Shown here: positions 2,323 through 24,344 of the stretch, piece after piece | Layout: every line of letters starts with the position of its first letter | Numbering within the stretch: the first letter of the stretch is position 1 | Program-made: the position numbers and the translations under genes | Assembly: GCA_030430075.1 (NCBI GenBank) | Contig: JAUIGN010000004.1 | Coordinates: 1-64,000 of the forward strand | Direction: 5' to 3' | DNA length: 64,000 bases | Source of the DNA: a bacterium | GTDB lineage: Bacteria > Planctomycetota > Planctomycetia > Pirellulales > Pirellulaceae | Notes under the pieces: generated by a model | Databases searched by the model: none | The model's input: the letters and a program-made list of their open reading frames with translations, nothing else | Told to the model about the DNA's origin: nothing

Positions 2323-3105
2323 TTAGAGATTTCGCAAGTACTGAATTGCCTGACCGATCTCCGCCGGCGGGTCCTCGGCATGTTCCCGTTCGACGGAGAA
2401 ATAGCCCCGGTAATTGTGTTCTTCAAGGACGCCGATCAGTTCCGGAAAATCGACGGAGCCCCTTCCCAGGGGCGTCTCGAGACCACGCCCTCGAGCCAGG
2501 TCACGCACCGCGTCTTTGGCGTGGACATGCGTGACGTACGTTCCCAAAGCGTGGATTGCGTCGTGGGCCGAAAACCCGTTAATGATCAGGTTGCCCGGGT
2601 CGAAGGCGACCGAAAGTGATCCCGGCGGGAGGGCCTCGATCAGGCGGGCCAGATCCTGGCCATCTTCGGTGCCGGTTTCCGCCGCCAGGCAGGCACCGAC
2701 ACGTTGCCCGTAGTTTCCCAAGTCGCTGAGGACCTCCTGCAACGTCTGCCAACCGGGCGCCTCATCCGAATCCGGGACACGTCCGATCTGGTTGACGACC
2801 ACCGAGCTCCCCAGGTCGTAGGCGAATTGCATGGCTTCCTTGGTCGCCTGAACGCGACGATCAAGGTCCTGCAGCGCGTCGTAGCCCCGGCGCGTCGGGA
2901 AGCGGACGGCACACACTCGTAGATTGTGGTCCTCCAGCGTCTTGCGAAGCTGGCGGAGGCCGGTCCGCGTGAACTCGCTTGGTTTGAGTTGGCTCCGGGC
3001 ATCCACCTCGACGGCGTCGGCACCCAGTTTTGCTGCCATCAGCAACGCTTTCTTGAACGGGAGCCGCAAATTGGTCAGTTGGATTCCAACGCGTAGCTGG
3101 GGCAC
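2323..3105 (-). CDS. Sugar phosphate isomerase/epimerase-like TIM barrel protein
   Basis: 260 aa with the pattern of the xylose-isomerase-like TIM-barrel family (AP endonuclease 2 fold). Visible features are RVGIQLTNLRLPFKKAL at the N-terminus, GADAVEVDA (first metal-side strand), the AAETGTEDG strand, LSVAFDPGNLI, THVHAKDA (metal ligand His) and a final YFSVEREHAEDP with the catalytic-side Glu. Such proteins isomerise or epimerise sugars or cleave related substrates, and the substrate cannot be read from sequence. The GTG at 3105 is chosen because it follows an AAGGGA ribosome site and starts at the first barrel strand; an upstream GTG at 3162 in the same frame would add 19 unconserved-looking residues. 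Confidence 0.85.
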   Translation of the reverse strand: MPQLRVGIQLTNLRLPFKKALLMAAKLGADAVEVDARSQLKPSEFTRTGLRQLRKTLEDHNLRVCAVRFPTRRGYDALQDLDRRVQATKEAMQFAYDLGSSVVVNQIGRVPDSDEAPGWQTLQEVLSDLGNYGQRVGACLAAETGTEDGQDLARLIEALPPGSLSVAFDPGNLIINGFSAHDAIHALGTYVTHVHAKDAVRDLARGRGLETPLGRGSVDFPELIGVLEEHNYRGYFSVEREHAEDPPAEIGQAIQYLRNL

Positions 3106-3365
3106 AGTGGTCGATCCCTTCGAGAGTGGTGGAAGTCGGGTTGGTTGTGGCGCGTCTGACACCAGACACTCATTCTAGCCGCCAGCCGGCCTGCGCAAAC
3201 GGACGGCACCAGGGTGCGCGACGACGCCTCCGCCGGCCGAGTCGGAGTGTGCTCGTTTGCCCCTCCGCAGAATCGCTGCCGGGGCGCACCAGTGGAGGTT
3301 GATCGCACCGGTTGGTAGAGTGGCGGTCTGTTGCCTGTCAGATCCTCCCCGCTTCGGGTGCCTTC

Positions 3366-4169
3366 ATGTTGCTTGCCGACGTCTGTCAGTTTCTCAACGA
3401 TTTTGCCCCCCCAGGCCTCGCGGAAGATTGGGACAACGTGGGGCTGCTGGTCGGCGACGCCTCGCGACGGGTCGAGAGGATCATGACCTGCCTGACCGTC
3501 ACGCCGGACAGTGCCGCCGAGGCCGTACGTGCCGAGGCGGACCTGATCGTCACCCATCATCCGCTCCCCTTTCGTCCACTCAAGCGGCTGACCACGGAGA
3601 CCGTGCCAGGACGCTTGTTGTTGCAGTTGATTGAGTCTTCGATTGCCATTTACAGCCCGCACACCGCTTTTGACTCGGCGGCCGCCGGGATCAACCAGCG
3701 GTTGGCGGAGGGGCTGGGACTGGAAGGGATCCAGCCGCTCGTGCCGCACGCCGACGAAGGGTCGGGTGATGTGCCCGGTCTGCTGGGAGCGGGCCGATTT
3801 GGAATCCTGCCGGCTGCCCGCGAGCTGGCGGACGTTGCCCAGCAACTGAAGCGAAATCTGGATGTGGCCGGGCTCCATCAGGTTGGGGCAGGCGCCAGGT
3901 CGATCCATCGAATTGCGGTCGCCTGTGGAAGTGCCGGAGAGTTCCTCGGCCCGGCCCGCAGCCAGGAATGTGACCTGCTGGTGACCGGAGAGACGACGTT
4001 CCACACCTGTCTGGAAGCCGAGTCGACCGGTGTGGCCTTGCTCCTGCCGGGCCATTACGCCAGTGAGCGGTTTGCCGTCGAACAACTGGCCCAGCGGCTG
4101 GCAGAAGAGTTTCAGGAACTCACCATCTGGGCCAGCAGCGACGAGCACGATCCGCTGCAATGGGTCTGA
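3366..4169 (+). CDS. NIF3/YbgI-family dinuclear metal-binding protein
   Basis: 267 aa, typical for the short NIF3-like family. Key residues: EDWDNVGLLVGD near residues 20-31, the metal-binding THHP motif (His64, His65), SPHTAFD in the middle, and the C-terminal metal ligands in GHYASERFAVE. The family forms toroidal hexamers with a dinuclear metal site; its biochemical role is unsettled, with proposals around GTP cyclohydrolase-like and DNA/RNA metabolism functions. The start ATG at 3366 begins MLLADVCQFL, matching the family N-terminus; an earlier in-frame ATG at 3312 would add 18 residues. Confidence 0.92.
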   Translation: MLLADVCQFLNDFAPPGLAEDWDNVGLLVGDASRRVERIMTCLTVTPDSAAEAVRAEADLIVTHHPLPFRPLKRLTTETVPGRLLLQLIESSIAIYSPHTAFDSAAAGINQRLAEGLGLEGIQPLVPHADEGSGDVPGLLGAGRFGILPAARELADVAQQLKRNLDVAGLHQVGAGARSIHRIAVACGSAGEFLGPARSQECDLLVTGETTFHTCLEAESTGVALLLPGHYASERFAVEQLAQRLAEEFQELTIWASSDEHDPLQWV

Positions 4170-4304
4170 TTCGCCTTCGACGGGCGATGCCATGTGCTGC
4201 GAGGCGTTTGGCATCGCGGGCCGTTTGCTGCGGCCCGACAGGCGACGATTGCGACCGTCGTGTTTCGCGATCTTGGGGACCTGCGAAGCGCGGCGCCGTT
4301 GGGT

Positions 4305-4310
4305 TACAAT
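4305..4310 (+). promoter_or_regulatory. -10 box suggesting a leaderless mRNA
   Basis: TACAAT lies 7 nt before the ATG at 4318, preceded by TGGG (extended -10-like). Usual spacing would put the transcription start at about 4317-4318, so the HAD gene mRNA would be leaderless. No good -35 is visible. Confidence 0.4.
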
Positions 4311-4317
4311 TCGAGCC

Positions 4318-4995
4318 ATGCATACACTTCTCTTTGACATTGACGGAACGTTGGTGAACACGGGCGGCGCGGGTGGCGCGGCGTTGACCGGCTGCTTTTG
4401 CGACGAGTTCAACATTGCCGAGCCCGCCAGCGTGGCCTTTAGTGGGCGAACCGATCGGGCGATCGCCACGAACCTCTTCGAAGAGCACGGCATTGAGGAC
4501 TCGGAAGAAAACTGGCAACGTTTGCGGTCCGGCTATCTAGCTCGGCTGGGCCACGAATTGCCCCGTCGGCAGGGGTGTGTTCTCCCGGGCGTCCTTGAAT
4601 TGCTGGAACGCGTGCGGACGTTGGAACACGTGGCCGTCGGTCTGCTGACCGGGAACCTGGCCAAGGGTGCCGAAATCAAGCTCGATTATTACCGGCTCGA
4701 TGCTCATTTTGCGTTTGGCGGCTACGGTGATGTTCACCGCAGCCGCGACGATGTTGCCCGCTCGGCCATCGACGCGGCACGCGAGCATCTGGGCGATCGA
4801 TTTCGGGAAGACCGGGTGTGGGTCATTGGCGACACGCCCCACGACGTCTCCTGCGCCCGGGCGGTCAATGCCAGGGTGCTGGCCGTCGCGACCGGCATTC
4901 ATCCCAGCGAGGAACTGGCTGCCTCGCTGCCCGACGAGCTGCGCGACGATCTCTCCAACACGGATCAGATCCAACGGCTCTTACTGGGGTCGTGA
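4318..4995 (+). CDS. HAD-superfamily hydrolase (phosphatase)
   Basis: 225 aa. All HAD motifs are visible: motif I FDIDGTLVNTGG (nucleophile Asp7, acid/base Asp9), motif II LLTGN, a Lys in the LAKGAEIK region, and motif IV VIGDTPHDVSCARA. The cap is a helical type similar to phosphoglycolate phosphatases. It probably hydrolyses a small phosphorylated metabolite; the exact substrate is unknown. The ATG at 4318 is chosen because motif I normally begins within about 10 residues of the start; the longer open frame upstream overlaps the NIF3 gene. A TACAAT box sits just before the start. Confidence 0.9.
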   Translation: MHTLLFDIDGTLVNTGGAGGAALTGCFCDEFNIAEPASVAFSGRTDRAIATNLFEEHGIEDSEENWQRLRSGYLARLGHELPRRQGCVLPGVLELLERVRTLEHVAVGLLTGNLAKGAEIKLDYYRLDAHFAFGGYGDVHRSRDDVARSAIDAAREHLGDRFREDRVWVIGDTPHDVSCARAVNARVLAVATGIHPSEELAASLPDELRDDLSNTDQIQRLLLGS

Positions 4996-17430: not shown

Positions 17431-17723
17431 AAGTCCGGGTTGCCGCCCAGCGGCTGAAGAATCATCCGTGTTGGCAGGCGAGCGACGAGCCCGCGCAGAA
17501 CCTCCGCATCATCCCCAACCTGCTCTTGTCAGCAGTGACAGCAACGGTGGGAAAAACTGATCTTGCCTCCGATTGGATTTCTCACGAGAATCCCCCGACA
17601 AGCTGCCTTTCGGAATGACTCCAACTGTCTGTACGGACTACGAGGCACGACGCCTCACGCTTGTTTGGCATTCGGCTCACGAAACGTCAATCGACAAGTA
17701 GTCAATCAATTGGAGGTCATCGC

Positions 17724-18440
17724 ATGCTGGTGCTTTCACGCAGAGAATCCGAACGGCTCGTCTTACCCACGCTGGGAATCACGATTGAAGTCGTCGGCGT
17801 GCAGGGCAAAAAGACGCGTCTGGGTATTGATGCGCCCCCCGATGTTCCGATCCTGCGGAGCGAGTTGGCCGACCTGAAGGGGATCGATTTCACGCCGGAC
17901 GGGACCACCGCGAACCGGAAGTGTTCCCGGTTGGCGACTGCAGTCCGGTCCACCGTCGGCTCGACCGCGGAAATCTTGAACCGCCTGCACGCCGGATTGG
18001 AAGGTAACGAGTCGGCGCAGCAGCTCGTCCTGGACGCGTTTCACGAATTGCGCGCCCTCGATCAGACCGTCGGCGAGACACTCGAGGAAATCGACCGGCG
18101 GCCGCCGCACGCGTTGCTCATCGACACGGACGCGAACGAACGGGAGCTGCTGGCCAGTTGTCTGCGGTTGAGCGGATTCGAAGTCGTGATTGCGTCGGAT
18201 GCCGAGGACGCGATTGGCTACCTGTCGATGCATTCGCGGCCGGACGTGGCGCTGCTTGATGCTTCGCGCGTGGATGCCGAAGACGTCGAGCGTCTGCGTT
18301 CCACGGAAGCCTGTCAGGACATCAAGTTGATCGGGCTGGGCGAACGTCAACCGGGCGTCGATCAAGCGTTCGCTCGACCGATCAACGCCGAGCAACTGGT
18401 GGACGCATTGACCCGCGAGTTGACGGTCGTTGCGGTTTGA
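17724..18440 (+). CDS. CsrA domain fused to a receiver-like domain
   Basis: 238 aa. Residues 1-50 are CsrA-like: MLVLSRRESERLVL, ITIEVVGVQGKKTRLGIDAP, DVPILRSEL. The RNA-contact residues Leu4, Arg6 and the C-terminal Arg (Arg45) are kept. CsrA binds GGA motifs in mRNA leaders and blocks or stabilises messages. Residues 51-127 look helical. Residues 128-235 resemble a response-regulator receiver: LLIDTDANERELL (acidic Asp134, Asp136), VALLDASR (phosphoacceptor-position Asp179) and FARPINAEQL. The conserved Lys is Arg218 and the Thr/Ser position is not conserved, so phosphorylation is uncertain. A TGGAGG ribosome site is 7 nt before the ATG and itself contains GGA, so autoregulation is possible. 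No kinase is adjacent. Confidence 0.85.
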   Translation: MLVLSRRESERLVLPTLGITIEVVGVQGKKTRLGIDAPPDVPILRSELADLKGIDFTPDGTTANRKCSRLATAVRSTVGSTAEILNRLHAGLEGNESAQQLVLDAFHELRALDQTVGETLEEIDRRPPHALLIDTDANERELLASCLRLSGFEVVIASDAEDAIGYLSMHSRPDVALLDASRVDAEDVERLRSTEACQDIKLIGLGERQPGVDQAFARPINAEQLVDALTRELTVVAV

Positions 18441-23547: not shown

Positions 23548-24030
23548 CTATTCGTGTCGCATGAACGTCTGACCGTGCAGGCGGGCACCCTCGAGGATCG
23601 TGAAGGGCGCCAGGGCGACGTCGTTGTAGGCCACCGTGGCGCGCACCAGGAACAGTTGCCGGGGCGCTGCTTCCGCCAGTTCCAGATCCGGCAAGGCCGC
23701 GAATTCGGCCGCGGTCGTCGGCAGCGGCGCGCCCTGATCCAGGCCTTCCGCATTCTTGACCATCACCGTCAGCTTGGAAGCGTCGACCGCCGCAGCCATG
23801 ACGCGATGGACGCGTGCTCGCACGTTCGCCGTGTCGATCCCGTCCATCGCGCCTTGCCGCGACGCTGTGCGACAGGCGGTCTTGAGCATGTGGTTGACCA
23901 TCGCCAGACGACCGTATTCGACCAGGCCGAAGACAAACGCCAGGAAGACGGGAAGCACAAACGCGACTTCCACGATCGTGGTTCCGGAACGTTTCTTGCG
24001 GTACGTCGATCGCGACATGCGTGTCGTCAT
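23548..24030 (-). CDS. TadE-like pilus assembly protein (first)
   Basis: 160 aa with the TadE pattern: basic start RSTYRKKRSG, then TTIVEVAFVLPVFLAFVFG as the VE-containing signal/helix, then VNHMLKTACRTASRQGAMDG. It is probably a pseudopilin of a Tad/Flp system. It begins the minus-strand run of three Tad genes. No TadA ATPase, TadB/C or major Flp pilin gene is in the window, so the rest of the machine lies elsewhere. Confidence 0.87.
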   Translation of the reverse strand: MTTRMSRSTYRKKRSGTTIVEVAFVLPVFLAFVFGLVEYGRLAMVNHMLKTACRTASRQGAMDGIDTANVRARVHRVMAAAVDASKLTVMVKNAEGLDQGAPLPTTAAEFAALPDLELAEAAPRQLFLVRATVAYNDVALAPFTILEGARLHGQTFMRHE

Positions 24031-24344
24031 GATTCGACCCTCAGGCTATCCAGAACATCCGGGCCCGCGGAAACGACCCGCAGAGAGATTCCCCATCGGT
24101 TGGATAACGGAGTTCGTGTTGCTCTTCAGCGGCCTGGCAATCTCGCGTGAACGACGAGACCCATGGCTTTGCGACCCGATCTCGCGACCGGTTTGCGTTT
24201 TTCGAGGAACGTTGCCTGAGTTCCGCGGAAAAGGAAAAGACTTGATGTGCATTAAAACAGATAGGTCACAACTGGCCGATTGTCAAATCGGCACCGGTTC
24301 CGGAAATGCCCGGCTCCATACTCCCTCAACGCGGGTTCCCACAC

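Follow-up and report, generated by a model that had tools for sequence, protein, structure and literature searches.

The window (the whole 64 kb stretch of planctomycete DNA analyzed here) carries on its forward strand, at 17724..18440, a gene coding for 238 amino acids plus a stop codon, in which a CsrA RNA-binding domain, a helical hairpin and a receiver-like domain are joined. The reading frame begins with ATG, and a Shine-Dalgarno-like GGAGG, read from the sequence, lies 7 nt before it on the same strand (17712..17716). Full-length homologues confirm that this ORF is real. Elsewhere in the window, a c-di-GMP-I riboswitch lies on the minus strand at 24125-24207 (Rfam RF01051, 57.6 bits against a gathering threshold of 35); the minus-strand ORF directly downstream of it (23548-24030) resembles a TadE-type pilus protein on visual inspection.

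The CsrA domain occupies residues 1-49 (17724..17870, forward strand). Its match to Pfam family PF02599 scored 54.9 bits against the curated cut-off of 27 (E 8e-15), and a PF02599 search of the window's own genome found it again. In an alignment of 37 homologues, residues M1, L2, V3, L4, R6, G28, G34, A37, P38 and R45 were invariant. The RNA-contact positions L4, R6 and R44 (R45 in the window protein) are present, in the numbering of E. coli CsrA. An earlier note, made from the sequence alone, had called residues 1-50 a clear CsrA with Leu4, Arg6 and Arg45 kept and had proposed the PF02599 search; both the assignment and the residues were borne out. CsrA binds RNA that contains GGA and does so as a domain-swapped dimer; the window protein would be expected to dimerize and to bind RNA likewise. 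Nine genes for CsrA occur in the window genome, free ones among them, and one of the free genes adjoins the only FliW gene. Around the window gene we observed no enrichment of ANGGA motifs (19 compared to 27.6 expected), and Rfam gave no CsrA sponge RNA within the 64 kb window.

A monomer model made by AlphaFold2 from a 37-row alignment showed the CsrA strands, two long helices (residues 61-91 and 96-121) and a complete (beta-alpha)5 receiver, with pLDDT of about 95. The helices form a hairpin at residues 61-121 (17904..18086, forward strand), and the receiver-like domain spans residues 129-237 (18108..18434, forward strand). Foldseek matched the predicted structure to solved receivers in the PDB with target TM up to 0.85. 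The Response_reg family (PF00072) matched residues 131-180 with E 1.5e-4; the 22.3 bits of this match stayed below the curated cut-off of 30.2. The resemblance of residues 128-235 to a receiver, proposed in the earlier note together with this HMM search, is thus upheld by the fold, while Pfam gives a visible match below its threshold.

Distribution of the fusion family

Homologues of the fusion were detected at E 1e-10 in 77 of 298 genomes of the class, a count that may be low because few candidates were scored per genome. Most of these were full-length and a few covered one part; the survey of planctomycetes that had been suggested did recover the same architecture. When a profile was searched across the phylum, all full-length sequences among the matches listed came from the same class. 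The named genome records with full-length matches were those of planctomycetes (Pirellulaceae, Pirellulales, Isosphaera, Thermoguttaceae and others).

An apparent fusion in Ignavibacteria (L161) was rejected, as it consisted of separate genes (3051-4954): an ORF of two FliW-like halves is followed by a free CsrA gene, and the receiver is encoded by a third gene after that. The window genome also encodes a different fusion of CsrA with a receiver-like domain (L034, G000:C35:274015-274554, minus strand). It has 180 amino acids, no hairpin and SNN where the acid pair would be, and no full-length relative of it was found among 40 related genomes.

A phylogenetic tree was built with 67 rows. The hairpin His and the receiver residues were intact in 55 rows and both lost in seven; four rows had lost the His alone and one a receiver residue alone. 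No fewer than three changes on this tree are needed to account for the loss of both the His and the receiver residues.

The hairpin and its likeness to DHp domains

In most members of the family the hairpin carries the motif H-x-x-R-N-x-L and is joined to a canonical receiver. Fifty-nine rows were picked because they have the His of the hairpin and the Lys of the receiver; all 59 have D179 and a Ser or Thr at position 206, and 58 have an Asp at position 135. When the hairpin profile was aligned by hhalign with the HisKA domains of the window genome and of the partner kinases described below, we obtained 96% with scores of about 41-43 (42 for the window genome), in the register of the H-box. 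The control scores were 8.9 on average and 16.6 at most for 200 column-shuffled profiles, 9.2 for the reversed profile and 11.3 for a coiled coil. HisKA was also the commonest match of isolated hairpins in Pfam (9 of 32), with the best E of 6.5e-4 below the cut-off; the likeness to HisKA is therefore strong at the profile level and carries no formal family assignment.

Other searches with the hairpin and the family gave the following. No family member matched SPOB_a over the cut-off, and a single member reached 4e-4. The hairpin profile searched against PDB sequences matched chiefly TPR, coiled-coil and designed helical chains; the rows from VIA-align span just the receiver. A HATPase_c domain was not detected by Pfam in the window protein at E up to 1, nor was it among the 25 families listed for 37 members.

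Neighbouring hybrid histidine kinases

A hybrid histidine kinase within 600 bp of the fusion gene was counted as adjacent. Such kinases were found at 34 of 47 H-box-positive loci compared to 2 of 13 H-box-negative ones (Fisher p 3e-4, a value that is only indicative because related loci entered at full weight). The count is conservative, since one locus (L147) was scored as partnerless though a partner exists. At one of the two H-box-negative loci with a hybrid kinase (L157), the His is still present and the Asn has become Asp. Pfam analysis of eight partner kinases revealed the order CheB-CheR-PAS-HisKA-HATPase-REC in six and DUF4118-HisKA-HATPase-REC in two. The window genome itself carries a canonical paralogue of the fusion (L038, G000:C44, in L126), with a CheB-CheR hybrid kinase 111 bp away. 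At another locus (L133, G088:C6), two fusions of CsrA and receiver stand 11 kb apart, surrounded by a number of large proteins with HisKA and by one receiver protein.

With a hybrid kinase as the partner, a His-Asp-His-Asp relay is the simplest model that fits the canonical family. The hairpin could instead be a mere dimerization spacer with a structural His, while the hybrid kinase would phosphorylate the receiver directly or would be no partner at all. Autokinase chemistry needs an acid at H+1, yet this residue is not conserved among family members, and 13 of the 47 H-box-positive loci had no adjacent hybrid kinase by our test; both points favour a spacer. However, 55 of the 59 rows whose receiver is intact keep the His, R+3 and N+4 of the hairpin sit in the HisKA register, and the DHp profile match lies far above the controls; we therefore regard a spacer as unlikely, though it deserves more weight than the other alternatives considered below.

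Apparent loss of phosphorylation chemistry within the window clade

The window protein belongs to a clade of nine sequences (support 98/93). In its hairpin, T72 stands where the phospho-accepting relay His would be and S76 replaces the Asn. The hairpin of the window clade gave 97.3% in hhalign against the canonical hairpin, compared to 0.4% directly against HisKA. By these alignments, the window hairpin corresponds to the DHp-like hairpin of its relatives in a decayed form.

The full catalytic set of a receiver (acid pair, phospho-Asp, Ser/Thr and Lys) is present in most relatives and incomplete in the window protein, which has D134, T135, D179, G206 and R218. Three of the five positions are lost: T135 stands for Asp, G206 for Ser/Thr and R218 for Lys. 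The earlier note had listed Asp134, Asp136 and Asp179 as kept and Lys as replaced by Arg218. We agree on D134, D179 and R218; however, the acidic pair aligns to residues 134 and 135 (D and T) rather than 134 and 136, which means the loss of one metal-binding Asp, and G206 at the Ser/Thr position was missing from that list.

Five members of the clade retain the receiver residues, except for Asn in place of Asp in L006, and have a broken hairpin motif (the Asn lost in three, the His in two). In the other four, the window protein included, the His, the second acid, the Ser/Thr and the Lys are all gone: T, N or R stands at the second acid, Gly at the Ser/Thr position and Arg at that of Lys. Hybrid kinases adjoin none of the loci of the clade; a single locus has a non-hybrid kinase, at 565 bp, and the flank of another (L002) is just 1.5 kb long. 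A search of the 64 kb window revealed no kinase of the HisKA type.

The receiver domain is nevertheless under purifying selection despite these losses. Between the window protein and its same-genus orthologue, pN was 0.143 in the receiver, 0.152 in CsrA and 0.265 in the hairpin, and omega of the receiver was 0.07, a rough figure given that dS (about 2) is near saturation.

Two further readings concern the window protein itself, and we hold both to be improbable. It could be a conventional response regulator in which a remote kinase, or acetyl phosphate, acts on D179 and so switches RNA binding. D179 is unchanged in all nine members of the clade, the degenerate ones included, and the window protein keeps D134 and D136, which leaves some chance of residual phosphorylation; the 21 HisKA matches elsewhere in the genome could serve an orphan fusion. 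Yet the substitutions in the four degenerate members and the lack of an adjacent hybrid kinase at every locus of the clade speak against phosphorylation. To about the same degree we doubt that the receiver-like domain is a useless remnant in decay, carried along by what is now a constitutive CsrA with a tail: the catalytic residues, the hairpin His and the partner kinase are indeed all lost, but the receiver diverges no faster than CsrA and none of the four degenerate orthologues has an interrupted reading frame. Finally, there is practically no chance that a sequencing or assembly error joined two separate genes, a refutation that the earlier note had offered against itself and for which only the Ignavibacteria case outside the phylum could be cited, with no support at the window locus: the same architecture occurs in dozens of independent planctomycete genomes, several of them single-contig, and the fusion is therefore no artefact.

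Proposed mechanism

The analyses show the three domains of the window protein, its descent from the fusion family, the lost residues, the lack of an adjacent hybrid kinase and the constraint on the receiver. In what we hold to be the most probable reading, the ancestral family was a phosphorelay from kinase to CsrA with the relay His in cis, and the window protein is an orphan of that family whose pseudo-receiver would work independently of phosphorylation.

In the canonical family, phosphate would pass from the kinase His to the Asp of the kinase receiver, then to the hairpin His and then to the Asp of the fusion receiver, and this last transfer would alter RNA binding by CsrA. The DHp-like hairpin may stand in for the missing HPt, as Spo0B does in the sporulation relay. 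In the window clade, as the tree suggests, the hairpin motif would have decayed first, followed by the receiver Asp, Ser/Thr and Lys. Since selection keeps the pseudo-receiver, we propose that the window protein acts as a CsrA dimer and that a protein or ligand on the pseudo-receiver may set how it binds RNA; a phosphorylation-independent allosteric input of this kind is possible.

The earlier suggestion that CsrA is coupled here to a phosphorylation or allosteric input thus divides. For phosphorylation it is plausible in the canonical relatives, which have an intact receiver, a DHp-like His and an adjacent hybrid kinase. It is unlikely in the window protein, given the lost catalytic positions and hairpin His and the failure to find a HisKA-type kinase in the window. 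More broadly, and tentatively, planctomycetes may possess a four-step relay that ends in an RNA-binding protein, from a CheB-CheR-PAS (or DUF4118) hybrid kinase to its own receiver, the hairpin His and the fusion receiver, so that translation would be under the direct control of a sensor kinase; the window lineage would have dropped the relay and kept the pseudo-receiver.

Significance and comparison with known systems

The links from sensor kinases to CsrA in well-studied bacteria are indirect and run through the induction of sponge RNAs (BarA-UvrY), or else FliW holds CsrA. Were CsrA itself the output of a kinase-linked protein, phosphorylation would act on translation by a direct route. The chemistry of the canonical relatives and the large sensor kinase that usually stands beside them suggest that some bacteria switch an RNA regulator directly by a sensor kinase. 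The window clade forms a natural series of relay loss, which makes the model testable.

The earlier note knew of no described CsrA-receiver fusion. A 2007 paper (PMC2222644), citing another source, lists CsrA among RNA-binding output domains of response regulators, so the bare fusion has been catalogued already. A literature search that covered few subscription journals returned no functional study of such fusions or of planctomycete CsrA. Within the same coverage nothing was found on the hairpin, on the pairing with a kinase or on the degenerate clade. The DHp-like hairpin in most relatives, the adjacency of hybrid kinases and the decayed window clade are new here.

The window protein resembles the CsrA/RsmA family (PF02599) in its N-terminal 49 residues and in L4, R6 and R45; free CsrA has about 60-70 amino acids, whereas here a hairpin and a receiver follow. 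Like RNA-binding response regulators, it unites a receiver fold with an RNA-binding domain, but it has the output domain at the N-terminus, with a DHp-like hairpin separating the two, and the receiver active site is lost. The canonical members share the hairpin with H-x-x-R-N-x-L with Spo0B-type phosphotransferases and HisKA DHp domains; Spo0B is a DHp-fold protein that acts in the HPt role. In contrast to these, the fusion hairpin is followed by no ATPase-like domain, has a receiver fused in cis, does not conserve the H+1 acid and, in the window protein, has lost the motif. Pseudo-receivers such as that of CikA (PDB 5jyu, among the Foldseek matches) likewise have a receiver fold without the full phosphorylation site; in CikA the pseudo-receiver is part of a kinase, while in the window protein it is joined to CsrA.
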